A program made the position numbers and the translations under genes. DNA of 64,000 nucleotides from an uncultured SAR86 cluster bacterium (GTDB lineage: Bacteria; Pseudomonadota; Gammaproteobacteria; Magnimaribacterales; D2472): positions 62,001 through 126,000 of the forward strand of contig CACLXS010000003.1 of NCBI GenBank assembly GCA_902610905.1, given 5' to 3'. The number at the start of each line of letters is the position of its first letter. Position 1 is the first letter of the stretch. A model generated the notes under the pieces. That model searched no databases and was not told the origin of the DNA. It saw only the letters and a list, made by a program, of their open reading frames with translations. Positions 22,966 to 62,023 of the stretch are shown piece after piece.

Positions 22966-23406
22966 ATGAACGATGATGCTTTCAAGGTTGTTTATAATAA
23001 AGCATTAGATATTATTTCCAGAAGAGAACATTCTCAAAAAGAGTTAACAGGAAAACTGCTTAATAAATTTAGTGAGGAAGAAATAGTTAACTCGGTAATC
23101 AATAATCTTGTTCAAAAAAATCTGTTAAATGACACTCGTTACTCAGAGGCATATGTGGTCAGCCGAAAAAGAAAAGGTTTTGGCCCAAAAAAAATTATGT
23201 ATGAACTTATCTCGCGAGGAGTTATTGAAAATATTGCCTATAAAGCAATAGAAAATGAAGGTGGCTGGAAAGATGCTGCCTTAAAAGCCTTTAATAAAAA
23301 ATTTAAAAAAGGTAAGGCGATGGATTTTAAAGAATTAAATAAACAAAAAACTTTTTTGCAAAATAGAGGCTTTAGTTTTGAAGAAATTGACTCAGTTTTT
23401 ACTTAG
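22966..23406 (+). CDS. recX: regulatory protein RecX
   Basis: ALDIISRREHSQKELTGKLLNKF, GFGPKKIMYELISRGV. Confidence 0.82.
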   Translation: MNDDAFKVVYNKALDIISRREHSQKELTGKLLNKFSEEEIVNSVINNLVQKNLLNDTRYSEAYVVSRKRKGFGPKKIMYELISRGVIENIAYKAIENEGGWKDAALKAFNKKFKKGKAMDFKELNKQKTFLQNRGFSFEEIDSVFT

Positions 23407-23427: not shown

Positions 23428-25017
23428 ATGTCATACGAGGTTTTAGCAAGAAAATATAGACCATCTAGCTTTGAAGAAGTTGTTGGTCAAGAGCATGTAA
23501 TACAAGCACTCGCTAACAGTATTCTTCAAGACAGAATTCATCAAGCTTTTATTTTTTCTGGTACAAGAGGTGTCGGTAAGACAACTCTTGGAAGAATTCT
23601 TGCTAAATGCCTTAATTGCTCATCTTCAGAAAAACCAGTAGCTATACCATGCAATAAATGTGTAAATTGTGATGAAATTAAATTAGGCAGATCCTTAGAT
23701 TTTTATGAGCAAGATGCTGCCTCTCAACGAGGCATCGATGCAATGAAAGAGCTATTGCAAACAGTTCCTCAGTCCCCTGCAAATGGACGATATAAAGTAT
23801 ATTTGCTTGATGAGGCTCACATGTTAACTACTGAGAGTTTTAATGCATTATTAAAAAATCTTGAAGAACCACCAAAACATGTGGTTTTTATTTTAGCGAC
23901 TACTAATCCAGAAAAGTTACCAAAGACAGTTCAATCCAGATGTTTACAATTAAATCTAAAAACAGTTGGCGGAACAGTTTTATCTAATCATTTACAGAAA
24001 ATTCTAGAATCAGAAAATATTAATTATGATCAAGAAAGTGTTGATTTAATTTCAGATGCTGCCTTAGGATCAGTAAGAGATTCATTGACGTTATTAGATC
24101 AAGCAATCGCTCATGGCAGTGGTGCTCTTAAATCATCTAATGTTAAAGAATTACTGGGAACAATTGATAATTCATTTTTAGTTGCAATGATTAAAGCAAT
24201 TATTGATGGAGATGGTATTGGTGCCTATGAAGCACTATCAAAAATAGAAGAACTATCCCCAGAATATGACGTAATTCTTAAAAGCTTGATCTCAATTTTA
24301 CATAAAACTTCAATAGAGAAAGTTTTAAATAATTCAACCGACACTGATATTAAAAATTTAGCAGCCAATATTGATAGTGAGTTTTGTCAGCTTTTATATG
24401 AGATCGCAGTCAATTCCTTTTCTAAATTCAATGCTCATCCTAGTCCAAAAGAGGCCCTGGAAGTTTGCATATTAAGAATGCTAGCTTTTAACCCTATTCA
24501 TAAACTTGATAGTAAAACGAGCGTCAACGAAAAAGAAAAAAAAAATTTAAAAAATCATAAAAAAATAGAGCCTATCAATACTGTAGATAACTCAGAATTA
24601 AAAAAAACAGCATTAAATGATAAAAATGGTAAGCCGAGTTTAAATAATAACACTGATTGGATAGGGTTATTTGATCTATTATCGTTGAGTGCTTTTGCTA
24701 GAAATTATTTTGGAAATCTTTCATTTCTTTCTTTTGAAGATTCACTTCTAACTTTGGTTGGAACTGACGAAAAAAGTATTCCTGAAAATGTTTTTAAAGA
24801 ATTTCAAAGTGTTTTAAATGAATATTTTAGTTCTAATATAGAGATTGAAATAAAATTAGGAAATAATAATGATTCTCCCCTGAGCCATAAAAAAAAGGTG
24901 GAATCTGAAAGACAATCACAAGCAGAAAAAGATGTTTTATCAGATCCATCAATTCAGAAGTTTCTTGATAAGTATGATGGTAATATTAAAGATGGATCAA
25001 TTAAGCCAGTAAATTAA
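23428..25017 (+). CDS. dnaX: DNA polymerase III subunit tau/gamma
   Basis: MSYEVLARKYRPSSFEEVVGQEHV; GTRGVGKTTLGRI; CysX zinc module; tau C-terminus FLDKYDGNIKDGSIKPVN. Confidence 0.96.
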   Translation: MSYEVLARKYRPSSFEEVVGQEHVIQALANSILQDRIHQAFIFSGTRGVGKTTLGRILAKCLNCSSSEKPVAIPCNKCVNCDEIKLGRSLDFYEQDAASQRGIDAMKELLQTVPQSPANGRYKVYLLDEAHMLTTESFNALLKNLEEPPKHVVFILATTNPEKLPKTVQSRCLQLNLKTVGGTVLSNHLQKILESENINYDQESVDLISDAALGSVRDSLTLLDQAIAHGSGALKSSNVKELLGTIDNSFLVAMIKAIIDGDGIGAYEALSKIEELSPEYDVILKSLISILHKTSIEKVLNNSTDTDIKNLAANIDSEFCQLLYEIAVNSFSKFNAHPSPKEALEVCILRMLAFNPIHKLDSKTSVNEKEKKNLKNHKKIEPINTVDNSELKKTALNDKNGKPSLNNNTDWIGLFDLLSLSAFARNYFGNLSFLSFEDSLLTLVGTDEKSIPENVFKEFQSVLNEYFSSNIEIEIKLGNNNDSPLSHKKKVESERQSQAEKDVLSDPSIQKFLDKYDGNIKDGSIKPVN

Positions 25018-25018
25018 C

Positions 25019-25615
25019 ATGCATCAAGATCTTCTAAATGATTTAATAAATTCTTTAACAATTTTGCCAGGCGTTGGAAAAAAATCTGCACAAAGAATGG
25101 CTCTCTACTTGTTAGATAAGAATAAAGATGGCGCTGGAATATTAGCTAAAACCCTTGAGAAAGCGATTGATGAAATTGGAAGATGTACAAGATGTAGAAT
25201 GCTAACATCAAATAGTCTTTGTAAGATATGTTCAGATAATACAAGGGATATGAATAGTATATGTATTGTTGAGAATCCTTCAGATGTTTTAGCAATAGAA
25301 TCCACTGGTGGATTTAAAGGGAGATATTTTGTTTTACTAGGAAGATTATCGCCAATTGATGGCATTAGCCCAGATGATTTAGGCATTAATGATTTTTTAA
25401 AATTGATAGAAATTGAAAATATTAAAGAGGTTATATTAGCAACTAGCTCAACGGTTGAAGGTGATGCAACTGCAATATATATTAAAGATCATATTAATGA
25501 TATTAAAGTATCGAGGATTTCATATGGAATTCCAATTGGAGGTGAATTGGAATATGTTGACGGTAATACAATAGCAAGAGCTATTCAGGGGAGAACAGAA
25601 ATAAATGTCGATTAA
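25019..25615 (+). CDS. recR: recombination protein RecR
   Basis: [18 protein letters not shown]4 zinc motif, [16 protein letters not shown]. Confidence 0.95.
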
Positions 25616-38395: not shown

Positions 38396-38426
38396 TATTA
38401 TTTAAATGTCATTAGAGAGGATTATT

Positions 38427-40253
38427 ATGGCAAGATCAAAAACTAAATCATTTCAGACAGAAACAAAGCAGCTTTTAAAGCTGATGATTCATTCTCTTTA
38501 CTCCAATAAAGAAATTTTTATCAGGGAGTTGGTATCTAACGCATCAGACGCAATAGACAAACTAAGGTTTAAATCTGTTGAAGATAAGTCTATTGCCAAA
38601 TACACAAAGGACCTAAAGATAGATGTCCAAGTTTTAAAAGAAGAAAAAAAAATCATTATCTCTGATAATGGTATTGGGATGAATGAGGAAGAGATAGTTG
38701 CCAATATTGGAACTATTGCAAGATCAGGTACTGCATCCTTTTTAGAAAACATAACGGGTGATAAGAAAAAAGATTCTAATTTAATAGGTCAGTTTGGTGT
38801 TGGTTTCTATTCAGTTTTTATGGTTGCTGACAAAGTACAGGTTATTTCAAAATCTGTTTTTGAAAAAACTGATACAGCAATAATGTGGGAAAGCTCTGGT
38901 GAAGAAAAATATAAACTCACAGAAGTCACTAAAGAAACAAATGGTACAGATATTGTTATATATTTAAATGAAGAGAATACAGAATTTGCTGAAGATGGAA
39001 GAGTGAGATTTTTGCTTGAGAAGTATTCCCAATACATTAATTTTCCTCTAAATTTAATTGGAGAAGACTCTGAATCAAAAAGAATAAACGATGCTGATGC
39101 ACTTTGGTTAAAGTCTAAAAGATCAATCAAAGAAGAAGAGTATAAAGAGTTCTATAAATTTATTACTTATGATCAAGACGATCCACTGCTTTGGGCTCAT
39201 AACAAAGTTGAGGGAAAGAACGAATATACAAATTTACTATACATACCTTCAAAACCACCCTTTGATCTTTGGAATCGTGAGTCACCTAGAGGCGTTAAAC
39301 TATATATTCAAAGAGTTTTCATAATGGATGATGCTTCAAATTTCTTACCATTATATTTAAGATTTGTTAGAGGAATTATTGATACTAATGACCTGCCTTT
39401 AAACGTGTCTCGAGAAATTCTTCAAGAACACCATCTCGTGGATACTATAAAAAAAGCTGTAACTAAAAGAATGCTTGACTCTCTAAAAGCTCTTAAAAAG
39501 GACTCTTTTGACAGTTATAAAGAATTTTGGAATGAATACGGTTTGGTTTTAAAAGAGGGGCCAGCTGAAGACAGAGAAAATAAAGACTTAATAGCAAGTA
39601 TATTACTATTTTCTTCCACTTATGCAAATAGTAAAGATAGCGACCAAAGCCTTGATGACTATCTTGAGCGAATGAGCGATGACCAAGATAAGATATATTA
39701 CTGTGTAGCTGATACATATGAAGCTGCAGCTAATTCCCCGCATATTGAAGGCTTAAAATCAAAAGGAATAGAAGTTCTTCTCTTAACAGATAGAATTGAT
39801 GAATGGGTTATGGCAGGATTAATGGAATATCAAGGAAAAGAATTAGTAAATGTTGCCAAAGAAGATGTTGTTGATGAAGATAAAACAAAAAAAGTTTCAG
39901 AGGCAGATCAAGATATTCTAGCAAAAATCAAAAAACAATTAGATGATAAAGTCTCTGACGTAATAATAAGTAAGCGTTTAACAGATTCTGCTTCTTGTAT
40001 CGTTTTACCTAAACATGAGCCTGGAGCTCAGTTAAGAAAAATACTTGAAGCTTCTGGTCAATCATTAGGATCATCTAACCCGATTTTTGAAATTAACATG
40101 AAACACAAATTGGTTAAAAAGCTTAAAGATATGAAAGGCAAACAATTTAATTCATTTGTAGATTTTCTTTATGACTATGCTGTAATAGCTGAGGGTGGAT
40201 CACCTCAAGATCCATCAAAATATCTGAGGCAATTAGATAAGTATCTTTCTTAG
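38427..40253 (+). CDS. htpG: molecular chaperone HtpG (Hsp90)
   Basis: FQTETKQLLKLMIHSLYSNKEIFIRELVSNASDA; GQFGVGFYS. Start set at ATG 38427 behind GAGAGG; the ORF-track start is 38406. Confidence 0.96.
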   Translation: MARSKTKSFQTETKQLLKLMIHSLYSNKEIFIRELVSNASDAIDKLRFKSVEDKSIAKYTKDLKIDVQVLKEEKKIIISDNGIGMNEEEIVANIGTIARSGTASFLENITGDKKKDSNLIGQFGVGFYSVFMVADKVQVISKSVFEKTDTAIMWESSGEEKYKLTEVTKETNGTDIVIYLNEENTEFAEDGRVRFLLEKYSQYINFPLNLIGEDSESKRINDADALWLKSKRSIKEEEYKEFYKFITYDQDDPLLWAHNKVEGKNEYTNLLYIPSKPPFDLWNRESPRGVKLYIQRVFIMDDASNFLPLYLRFVRGIIDTNDLPLNVSREILQEHHLVDTIKKAVTKRMLDSLKALKKDSFDSYKEFWNEYGLVLKEGPAEDRENKDLIASILLFSSTYANSKDSDQSLDDYLERMSDDQDKIYYCVADTYEAAANSPHIEGLKSKGIEVLLLTDRIDEWVMAGLMEYQGKELVNVAKEDVVDEDKTKKVSEADQDILAKIKKQLDDKVSDVIISKRLTDSASCIVLPKHEPGAQLRKILEASGQSLGSSNPIFEINMKHKLVKKLKDMKGKQFNSFVDFLYDYAVIAEGGSPQDPSKYLRQLDKYLS

Positions 40254-51926: not shown

Positions 51927-51956
51927 AAAAAGGGGTGCTTCTGCACCCTTTTTTTA
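51927..51956 (+). terminator. Rho-independent terminator after hupB
   Basis: AAAAAGGGGTGC-TTCT-GCACCCTTTTTTT. Confidence 0.85.
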
Positions 51957-51973
51957 TTTATAATGGCACCACT

Positions 51974-53848
51974 ATGATGGAATCACTCAGAAATTTTTTA
52001 ACAGGACCTAGATTATTCATTGTCGTAGCTGCATGTGCGCTACCATTTGTTTTTTTAGGAACATCTTCGCTAACAGATACAACCGGTAATTCTCTTGGAT
52101 CAATAAATGGTGAAAATGTTATACAGGCTGACTTTCAAGTCGCCACTAATCTAGCTATTCAGAAATATAAAGATATTTATGGTGAAAGCTTTGAGCTCTC
52201 AGAGCTTTCAGATGAAATACAACTCGAAATAATCAAACAAGAACTAATAATTCAAAAAACTTTATTAGCTAATGCAAGATCAATGGGTTTTGTTAATGAT
52301 CACACAAGAACATTAGCAAAAAAAAATATTATTGCTAATAATGCATTCTGGGTTGATGGCACTTTTAACGAAGATGTTTTTGAAGCTCAAGCTAATGCTA
52401 ATGGTTTTACAAAAGAAGAATATATTGAACAAATATCACTATTACTTGCAACAGACCAATTCAGAAGCGCTATAGGCGCTAGCAGTTTTGCATTAGATAA
52501 AGAATCAAGAGATTTAGCTTCAATCTTAGAACAAACTATTAATTTAAATTTTATCAAAGTTGATTCATCAGAATTATCACAAAGCATTACTAATACTGAA
52601 GAGGAGTTATTAGATTATTATAAAAATAATGAACTTAAATTCTTTTCAGATGAATCAAGATCATTTAGCTACTTTATTCTCAACAATAAAGATTACGAAG
52701 ATTTGGTAAAAGTCCCAGATAATTACATTCAATCTTCATATGAAAATTATCTTGCAAACAATAAAGATAATTCTGAAATAAGGATTTCTCATTTAATGAT
52801 CAATAAATCAAATCATGACTCTGAAGCCTCAGCTTTGTCACACATAAATAATATTAAAGATAAATTATCAGTCGGTGAAAGTTTCGAGACTCTAGTTGAA
52901 CAATATAGTGATGACGTAGTTACTAAAGATAGCGGAGGTGATTTAGAATACTTTGATGCAGATATTTTCCCTGAACAATTTTCAATAGCTCTAAATAACC
53001 TTGAGTTAAATGATATTAGCGATGTTGTTGAATTAGATGATTCATATCATCTTATAAAAGTTACAGAATACAATAAATTTATTCCAGTCCCATTGGAAGA
53101 AATGCAAAAAGTTTTTGTTCAAGAACTAGTAGAAACAGAATCAATAGCTTTAATGAATGATGATTTTAATTCATTAGATTCTCTTATAATTTCTGGAGCA
53201 CCCATAAATGAAATCTCAAATTCTATAAAAACGCAATTAAAAATTAGTAAAAACAATACTTTTGAAAACTTTGATTCTGAAATTAACAATACTGAAATTA
53301 GAGAATACATTTTCTCACCTGATGCTGAGATTGGCATTGTTACAAGTTTTGAAATAGATGATTCGATTATTATTTTATCATTATCTGAAATAATTCAACC
53401 TGTTCTTCAACCATATGAAGAAGTGCAAGATGAAGTATCTCGATCACTTACTTCTATTAAAACTGTTACAAAGCAAAATTTATTACTTGATGAGATTGCA
53501 CAAACAAAAATATCTGGCACAGTTGATTCATTTATATCTGCTTATAGCTTTATAAAGTCAGATTCATTTATTAATGTAGCAAGAGGCTCATCCTTGTTAC
53601 CTCAAGAAGTATTATCAGAAGCATTTAAGCTTTTACCTGGAGAGTCAACTTCTGCAAAGTCAATTTCTGGTGATGACTATATCATTGACTTAATAAGTAT
53701 TAATAAGCCCTCAGAAAAGCAAATTGATGATGTAATAGCTCAATATGAACAATTCGCTGAAAATAGATTCACACAACAAATGAATGATTTGATTAGTTCG
53801 GATCTTTTTGACTCGTCAAATGTTAATTTAAATAATATAGTATTCTAA
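51974..53848 (+). CDS. ppiD: PpiD-like periplasmic folding chaperone (SurA_N plus rotamase domain)
   Basis: MMESLRNFLTGPRLFIVVAACALPFVFLG; parvulin domain IRISHLMINK...YSDDVVTKDSGGDLEYF. The ORF-track start lies in the hupB terminator. Confidence 0.85.
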   Translation: MMESLRNFLTGPRLFIVVAACALPFVFLGTSSLTDTTGNSLGSINGENVIQADFQVATNLAIQKYKDIYGESFELSELSDEIQLEIIKQELIIQKTLLANARSMGFVNDHTRTLAKKNIIANNAFWVDGTFNEDVFEAQANANGFTKEEYIEQISLLLATDQFRSAIGASSFALDKESRDLASILEQTINLNFIKVDSSELSQSITNTEEELLDYYKNNELKFFSDESRSFSYFILNNKDYEDLVKVPDNYIQSSYENYLANNKDNSEIRISHLMINKSNHDSEASALSHINNIKDKLSVGESFETLVEQYSDDVVTKDSGGDLEYFDADIFPEQFSIALNNLELNDISDVVELDDSYHLIKVTEYNKFIPVPLEEMQKVFVQELVETESIALMNDDFNSLDSLIISGAPINEISNSIKTQLKISKNNTFENFDSEINNTEIREYIFSPDAEIGIVTSFEIDDSIIILSLSEIIQPVLQPYEEVQDEVSRSLTSIKTVTKQNLLLDEIAQTKISGTVDSFISAYSFIKSDSFINVARGSSLLPQEVLSEAFKLLPGESTSAKSISGDDYIIDLISINKPSEKQIDDVIAQYEQFAENRFTQQMNDLISSDLFDSSNVNLNNIVF

Positions 53849-59467: not shown

Positions 59468-59914
59468 ATGAAAACAGTAAATATTTATACTGACGGTGCT
59501 TGTAGAGGTAATCCAGGAATTGGAGGGTGGGGTGTTTTAATAGAGTATGCAGATATAAAAAAAGAATATTTCGGCGGCATGCATAATACAACAAACAATC
59601 AGATGGAGTTAATGGCAGCAATTGAAGGCCTGAAAGTCCTAAAGGAACCATGTCAGGTAAATCTCACAACGGATTCAAAATATGTCATGCAAGGAATAAC
59701 ATCTTGGATAGACAATTGGAAAAAAAATAATTGGAAAAATGCTGCAAAAAAAAATGTTAAAAATAAAGATCTATGGATTGAGCTAGATAATTATGTCTCT
59801 ATTCATGAAGTAAAATGGAGTTGGGTAAAAGGTCACTCAGGGCATGAGCAAAATGAAATAGCTGATCAGCTTGCTAATAAGGGAATTGATTTATTATTGA
59901 ATGAAAATGGCTAA
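59468..59914 (+). CDS. rnhA: ribonuclease HI
   Basis: [47 protein letters not shown]. Confidence 0.96.
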
Positions 59915-60626
59915 AAAATATATTATTTTGGATACTGAAACAACAGGACTTGAGGTGCAGCAAGGACACAGAGTTATTGAAATTGGTGCTGTTTTAATAA
60001 ATGATAGAAATAAATCTGAAGAACATTTTCATACATACATAAATCCAACAAGACTTATTGATGAAGAAGCCTCAAAAGTACATGGAATCATGAATGAAGA
60101 TCTTATAGATAAACCTTTGTTTGAAGACATTGCAGAAGAATTTCTAGAATTTATTGATGGTTCAACTTTAGTTATTCATAATGCAGCCTTTGATGTTGGT
60201 TTTTTAAATCATGAACTTAAACTAGCTTCCTCTAAGTACCCAACCTTAGAAGAAATATGTGAAATTGAAGATTCTTTAGCCATTGCTAGAGATAAATATC
60301 CTGGTCAAAGAAATTCTCTAGATGCATTGGCATCGAGATTTAATATTTCAGGCTATGATAGAACTTTTCATGGAGCCTTGTTAGACGCAAACATACTTGC
60401 TGATGTTTATATGGCATTAACAGGTGGCCAAAGCAAATTTGAATTTACTAATAATAATTCTGCAATTTCAGAACAAAAAAGCTTTTCTGAAAATTTAATT
60501 TCAAGAGATAAATTGCAATTAATAAAAGTTAAAGCTAGTAAAAATGATCTTAAAGAACATGAAAAAAGACTTGCTGACATTGAAAAATTAAATTCAGTTA
60601 AAACAATATGGAGAAAGATTCATTGA
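59901..60626 (+). CDS. dnaQ: DNA polymerase III epsilon subunit
   Basis: [53 protein letters not shown]. Confidence 0.95.
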
Positions 60627-62023
60627 AAAAGGTTATTACCAGATTTGCTCCCAGCCCAACAGGAACACTTCATATTGGCGGAGTTAGAACGGCATTATTT
60701 AATTACGTTTACGCAAAAAAAAATCATGGTCAATTTTTAGTAAGGATTGAAGACACTGATCGTGAAAGATCAACAAAAGAGTTTGAAGATAATATTTTAA
60801 CAAGTCTTGAATCAATTGGCTTAAAACCAGATTTCACTCCGATTAATCAATCGGAAAGAGGTGATATTTATATAGCTGCAGCAGAAAAGATTATTAGTTC
60901 AAATCAAGCCTACTATTGTAATTGTTCAAAAGAGAGACTAGATGCAATGAGAGCGGAACAACAGGCTAAAGGACTTAAACCGCAATATGATGGGAAGTGT
61001 AGAGATTTAAACTTAGAAAAATCTGAAAATACTGTCCTAAGATTAAAAACACCGCTTGAAGGAACTATAACAGTCAAGGATTATGTTCGTGGAGAAATTG
61101 TTTTCAATAATTCTGAGCTTGATGATCTAATCATCCTTAGGAGTGATGGTAGTCCTACATATCATCTTTGCAATGTTGTAGATGATTATGAGCAAGGTGT
61201 TACCACTGTCATTCGTGGAGAGGATCATATAAGCAACACACCGAGACAAATTCATATTCAAAATGCTTTGGGATATCCAGAGTTAGAATACGCTCATCTA
61301 CCTTTAGTTTTGGGCAGCGATAAAAAAAGACTGTCTAAAAGACATGCAGCTACAAGTCTTGAAGAATATAAAAATGATGGCTATTTAGATTCAGCAATTT
61401 TAAATACATTAGCAAGACTTGGTTGGTCTAGGGGGGATAAAGAAGTATTTTATTTAGATGATTTAATAAGAGACTTTGAAATTACTGAAGTACAAAAAGC
61501 TGGAGCTATTTTTGATACTACAAAACTAAATTTTTTAAATGTACAACACATGGCCAATCTATCATTAGAAGAGTTTATTAAATATTTAGAACCATTCATG
61601 CAAGCTGTCAATATCGATCTGTATACACATAATAAATATGAGATTTTAATTGATGCCATGAGATCTTCTGGAAATACATTTAAAGAAGTCGCACAAAATT
61701 TAACTTGTTATTTTGAAAAACCGGGATCTTATAATCAAAAAGCAATAGAGAAATTTATTGGAGGTTCGACTGAAATTTTAAACGATTTAAAAGATAGCAT
61801 TATTAATAATGATAACTGGACTGAGGATAGCATAGACAAGATGTTGTCTTCTTATCGAGATTTAAAAGACTTAAGCGTTCCAAAAGTTAATCAGCCGTTA
61901 AGAATTGCCCTAACTGGCTCTACAAACTCACCTTCATTAGGACTCACATTATCACTGTTTGAAAAACCGGAAGTTTTAGACAGGATTAATAAACTTATTG
62001 GATTTATTGAGACAAATAACTAA
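60608..62023 (+). CDS. gltX: glutamyl-tRNA synthetase
   Basis: RFAPSPTGTLHIGGVRTALFNY; KKRLSKRHAATSLEEYK. Confidence 0.95.
   Translation: MEKDSLKKVITRFAPSPTGTLHIGGVRTALFNYVYAKKNHGQFLVRIEDTDRERSTKEFEDNILTSLESIGLKPDFTPINQSERGDIYIAAAEKIISSNQAYYCNCSKERLDAMRAEQQAKGLKPQYDGKCRDLNLEKSENTVLRLKTPLEGTITVKDYVRGEIVFNNSELDDLIILRSDGSPTYHLCNVVDDYEQGVTTVIRGEDHISNTPRQIHIQNALGYPELEYAHLPLVLGSDKKRLSKRHAATSLEEYKNDGYLDSAILNTLARLGWSRGDKEVFYLDDLIRDFEITEVQKAGAIFDTTKLNFLNVQHMANLSLEEFIKYLEPFMQAVNIDLYTHNKYEILIDAMRSSGNTFKEVAQNLTCYFEKPGSYNQKAIEKFIGGSTEILNDLKDSIINNDNWTEDSIDKMLSSYRDLKDLSVPKVNQPLRIALTGSTNSPSLGLTLSLFEKPEVLDRINKLIGFIETNN

Follow-up and report, generated by a model that had tools for sequence, protein, structure and literature searches.

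The dnaX locus and its A10 run

The stretch of DNA analyzed here, referred to in the following as the window, is 64,000 nucleotides long and has a GC content of 32%. It derives from a gammaproteobacterium of the SAR86 cluster, a major and mostly uncultured marine lineage, with a streamlined genome of 1.02 Mb. On its forward strand, the window carries a dnaX gene (23428..25017), a single ORF encoding the full-length DNA polymerase III tau subunit of 529 amino acids. The assignment is supported by a match to TIGR02397 (dnaX_nterm) at 393 bits in a Pfam/NCBIfam search and by the alignment of E. coli tau/gamma structures over residues 1–359, and close relatives of the gene carry SAR86 cluster bacterium titles. 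The neighboring genes are recX upstream (22966–23406) and recR downstream (25019–25615), the latter starting one base after the dnaX stop (25017–25019). The ybaB gene, which sits between dnaX and recR in E. coli, is absent from this position in the window.

The part of the protein that tau would share with a predicted gamma comprises the AAA+, lid and III domains (Pfam PF13177, PF22608 and PF12169; structure 1jr3), residues 1–369, encoded on the forward strand at 23428..24534. Domain III (PF12169) ends at residue 353, and the gamma chain of E. coli crystal structure 1jr3 aligns up to residue 358. The tau-only C-terminal domain spans residues 410–525 (24655..25002, forward strand) and is PF12170-like, with a Pfam score of 28.0 bits, below the cut-off of 28.8.

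Between these two parts, at residue 370, lies a run of exactly 10 A's (24536..24545, forward strand). From 24535, the sequence reads GAA AAA AAA AAT TTA AAA AAT CAT AAA, where GAA is codon 370 (24535–24537) and the run extends over codons 370–373. It includes an in-frame A_AAA_AAA heptamer (24537..24543, forward strand), as the initial annotation of this DNA had pointed out. That annotation had also placed the run after the end of domains I–III, which agrees with a domain III boundary at ≈353–359. A cut at the A run would thus yield a clean clamp-loader subunit made up of domains I–III, the predicted gamma.

Both shifted reading frames terminate shortly after the run. In the −1 frame, entered after one A is gained in the mRNA or by a −1 ribosomal shift, a TAA at 24558..24560 gives a product of 377 rather than 529 amino acids, exactly as had been annotated. 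An earlier TAA in the +1 frame, which the annotation did not mention, is located at 24548..24550, two codons beyond the run; it would be reached after one A is lost or two are gained, giving a product of 373 amino acids. Both stops are on the forward strand and were read directly from the sequence.

Conservation of the run across SAR86

We compared 136 dnaX genes from the same SAR86 order, representing four GTDB families: f1, to which the window belongs (96 genes), f2 (7), f3 (22) and f4 (11). At the homologous site, directly after clamp-loader domain III and inside a hypervariable linker, 134 of the 136 genes carry a run of 9–11 A's. The two exceptions have eight A's (L087) and no run (L141), respectively. 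In 131 genes the length is A9 or A10, and in f1 it is mostly A10.

The codons within the run are equally constrained. Free interruption of the run by AAG or GAA in relatives had been named beforehand as an observation that would speak against a recoding site. It was not seen: all 92 intact f1 genes use AAA for both lysine codons of the site (AAG in 0 of 184 codons), whereas the AAG share at the other conserved lysine columns in f1 is 17–43%, except for one (column 8) at 3%. When parsimony was used to count synonymous changes at lysine codons on a phylogeny built from the N-terminal domains, none had occurred at the site, against 8–16 in most other conserved columns and three in column 8. Within linker residues 357–400, K371 and K372 are the sole invariant positions.

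Long A runs are not in themselves unusual in this genome, which has about 69 A/T runs of at least nine over its 1.02 Mb, five of them exactly 10 in length. The four control A9 runs in the window are found in an HSP90/htpG-like gene (38406–40253), a SurA/PpiD-like gene (51935–53848), a glutamyl-tRNA synthetase-like gene (60608–62023) and, at codon 93, the RNase H gene (59468–59914). By the identical method, these runs remain at A9 or longer in only 3.6, 6.7, 6.7 and 13% of relatives, respectively, compared with 96% for dnaX. The initial annotation had cautioned that A9 runs occur elsewhere in the window by chance, as in the RNase H gene. A single A10 run alone would be unremarkable; because it is conserved among relatives, the run in the window dnaX is, by this comparative evidence, under selection rather than a product of chance. 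The best kept of the control runs is that of the RNase H gene, which is at least A8 in 22 of 30 relatives, mostly just below nine.

The coding sequence of the window contains five A runs of nine or more, compared with 7.1 expected from synonymous shuffles. Runs of at least nine also number five against 10.5 expected, and thus appear to be under-represented, which hints weakly that they do harm elsewhere in coding sequence; the cause of this depletion may be replication errors instead of transcription. Sense-strand T runs of at least nine are absent (3.4 expected), and A7 runs are commoner than in the shuffles (59 versus 40).

The codon phase of the run differs between families. It is phase 1 in f1 and f2, where the surplus A's flank the heptamer on both sides, as in GAA AAA AAA AAT. 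In f3 it is phase 0, of the form nnn AAA AAA AAA G, with the surplus A's on the left and a length of exactly nine in 20 of 21 genes. In f4 it is phase 2, of the form GTA AAA AAA AAR, with the surplus on the right. Even within f1, when two genes (L055, AAA AAA AAA ATA; L099, TTA AAA AAA AAA) are compared with their relatives, one A on either side of the run is different, and both genes still have A10. To judge from these alignments, the conserved property is a run length of at least nine, maintained across three phases, and not a 7-base heptamer. Retention of the same length in different codon phases constitutes a purely comparative test by which transcriptional slippage at A runs can be told apart from ribosomal slippage, and other genes could be examined in this way too.

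A −1 stop is found within nine codons in all intact SAR86 genes that have the run, but it is no closer than in codon shuffles (mean p 0.49). The +1 stop is somewhat closer than in the shuffles, by a measure that is inflated by relatedness. Both shifted frames stop within nine codons in 95% of genes versus 38% in codon shuffles, a figure likewise inflated by relatedness. Stop proximity by itself was set aside as evidence, as only the +1 and joint measures depart from the shuffles.

Transcriptional or ribosomal slippage

Conservation among relatives lends strong support to the suggestion in the initial annotation that dnaX contains a recoding site producing a gamma-like DnaX. That annotation had offered two mechanisms for this, transcriptional slippage and −1 ribosomal frameshifting, and our comparison favors the former. 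We consider the A10 run likely to be a site of programmed transcriptional slippage, from which both tau and a gamma-like DnaX would be made. RNA polymerase slipping on the run would produce mRNAs with 9, 10, 11 or more A's. Those with 10 or 10+3n A's would encode the 529-residue tau, while all others would meet a stop only a few codons further on and yield clamp-loader domains I–III without the C-terminal tau domain, 373 residues long after the loss of one A or the gain of two, and 377 after the gain of one. That the SAR86 RNA polymerase slips here, how frequently it would do so, and that gamma is produced and put to use, we infer from the Thermus precedent and from how such runs behave in published work.

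Published run lengths fit slippage in SAR86, where the run is A9 or A10 in 131 of the 136 genes. Baranov et al. (2005; PMC1088944) gave nine as the usual slippage-prone length, with selection for slippage evident at nine in many bacteria, and considered a 9A run whose length is conserved among homologs very likely to serve slippage. Consecutive A's make E. coli ribosomes slide, and such sliding, alone or mixed with transcriptional slippage, is another conceivable route to gamma. In the E. coli system of Koutmou et al. (2015; PMC4363877), sliding was slight at A9 and A10 and gave robust product at A11; with nearly all SAR86 runs at the two shorter lengths, we regard this route as quite unlikely.

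Programmed −1 ribosomal frameshifting on A_AAA_AAA at the two lysine codons, with termination at 24558–24560 to give a 377-residue gamma, has in its favor that the heptamer is in frame in every gene with a run and that all intact ones have the nearby −1 stop. However, any run of at least nine A's automatically includes an in-frame A_AAA_AAA, so the presence of the heptamer does not discriminate between the mechanisms. A requirement for seven bases leaves the retention of at least nine A's unexplained, with the two extra A's on the left, the right or both sides depending on the family, and the close +1 stops would be superfluous. In E. coli, A_AAA_AAA promotes far less shifting than A_AAA_AAG (PMC5009743), and the latter heptamer is absent from the window site and from the site in f1–f3, occurring among the SAR86 families only in part of f4.

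Signals that stimulate ribosomal frameshifting were not apparent either, in agreement with the initial annotation, which had noted no obvious upstream Shine–Dalgarno (SD) sequence or stem-loop. No SD-like stimulator was seen upstream of the run in the window, and across the SAR86 genes SD-like motifs are found at 17% of sites versus 11% background, which is not a convincing enrichment. The 60 nt downstream of the run fold at −2.9 kcal/mol in the window and at a mean of −5.0 kcal/mol in SAR86, compared with −19.7 kcal/mol for E. coli dnaX, a difference that is partly due to AT-rich composition. Shuffle z-scores for RNA structure were discarded as uninformative, as the E. coli positive control itself had a z of only 0.03; the contrast with E. 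coli is thus one of raw energies only.

Taken together, −1 ribosomal frameshifting as the route to gamma appears improbable, and transcriptional slippage is favored because a length of at least nine is kept in three phases, because there is neither SD enrichment nor evident downstream structure, and because stops lie near in both shifted frames. Ribosomal slippage could still contribute at the run, since an in-frame A_AAA_AAA is always contained in it. The absence of any recoding, with the run maintained for a Lys-Lys peptide or a DNA structure, or through AT bias, might be argued from the AT-rich genome (32% GC), from the lysine-rich linkers and from composition alone giving some shifted-frame stops. 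It fails to account for the complete absence of the synonymous AAG, for the invariance of the site amid a hypervariable linker and for the lack of conservation of other A9 runs, and we consider it very improbable.

Comparison with known dnaX systems

The closest parallel is the dnaX gene of Thermus thermophilus (PMC1088944, PMC5009743). Like the SAR86 genes, it has a sense-strand run of at least nine A's (A9 in Thermus) with tau encoded in one ORF, and stops close to the run in the two other frames, leading to a shorter gamma without the tau C-terminus, which in SAR86 is predicted. In SAR86 we found each of the sequence features of the Thermus type: at least nine A's in a single-ORF tau, a conserved length that is independent of phase, stops close by in both shifted frames and a site between domains. 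The two systems differ in that SAR86 is gammaproteobacterial and AT-rich, has A9–A11 in three phases across an order and is known here from sequences; its run directly follows domain III (residue 370 of 529), whereas that of Thermus is seven-eighths through the gene. On these features, SAR86 dnaX is a new, order-wide case of predicted Thermus-type dnaX slippage, and the SAR86 lineage, like Thermus, very probably obtains two replication proteins from a single dnaX gene. Our literature search, which covered papers outside subscription, found no prior report of dnaX slippage in SAR86. If slippage sets the composition of the SAR86 clamp loader, two DnaX forms persist despite streamlining of the genome to about 1 Mb, a point relevant to the debate on whether gamma is needed.

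E. coli dnaX shares with SAR86 an in-frame, A-rich slippery heptamer in the same gene and an outcome of gamma plus tau, the SAR86 gamma again being predicted. It differs in using −1 frameshifting on A_AAA_AAG with an SD and a stem-loop; SAR86 lacks this heptamer in f1–f3, and has no SD enrichment and, by raw folding energy, no strong stem-loop. The SAR86 site is also ≈60 codons more N-terminal (codons 370–372 versus 428–430), and keeps a long homopolymer.

In the two-ORF dnaX genes of Chlorobi and others, an A run, mostly A10, likewise lies at the gamma/tau junction, and transcriptional realignment has been proposed (Antonov et al. 2013; PMC3711429). In those genes, the genomic frame yields gamma, and tau arises through slippage; SAR86 is the reverse, with tau in frame, and the 529-residue tau of the window is a single ORF that needs no frame change. 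Blochmannia are also AT-rich gammaproteobacteria, in which polymerase slippage at A runs is thought to be needed, including in dnaX (PMC3017870). In that case, the presumed role of slippage is to correct frameshifts that arose by accident beyond the gamma site, whereas the SAR86 run is in frame and order-wide.

Runs in other Gammaproteobacteria

Outside SAR86, we examined 68 other gammaproteobacterial dnaX genes, a non-random sample taken among the best-scoring hits. In codons 358–400, runs of at least A8 are present in 13 of the 68, compared with 5.0 from synonymous shuffles, and runs of at least A9 in six, compared with 2.7. The 13 genes with long runs are scattered over the tree. The E. coli control dnaX has only A_AAA_AAG, at codons 428–430, and most of the GC-rich dnaX genes sampled have neither an A run nor A_AAA_AAG. 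Tentatively, slippage where domain III ends may be the ancestral route to gamma across the SAR86 order and be employed repeatedly in other Gammaproteobacteria too, at a site that drifts in frame and keeps its length, although we hold this to be somewhat less than an even prospect. If it is true, ribosomal frameshifting of the E. coli type is only one among several solutions found in the class. Outside SAR86, isolated gammaproteobacteria (L163, L166, L175, L178, L203 and L215), with a dnaX GC content of 41–57%, have an A9 run shortly after domain III, at codons 371–398.

Exceptions and unusual assemblies

The one gene with neither an A run nor a slippery heptamer at the site, L141 (genome G162, family f3 of the SAR86 order), belongs to a larger-genome SAR86 genus (about 1.8 Mb) that branches at the base of f3. 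This points either to a loss of the run in that genus or to more than one gain.

In two genes, the dnaX frame is broken exactly at the run, the tau portion being intact in a different frame: L087 (G074) has A8 where its relative L057 has A9, and L106 (G024) has A11 where its relatives have A10. These are the only SAR86 assemblies that resemble the two-ORF type. They represent either assembly errors or genes in which slippage makes tau, and we dropped them as proof of slippage since an assembly error is possible. Two further genomes, G057 and G061, in which dnaX is broken elsewhere, are probably error-prone assemblies, and in L110 the run is present and the gene is broken upstream of it. One genome has, in addition to a normal dnaX, a second, divergent partial copy (L111, G077:C1:1-2100) that is 34% identical and carries an A12 run in phase 2; this is possibly a contaminant contig.
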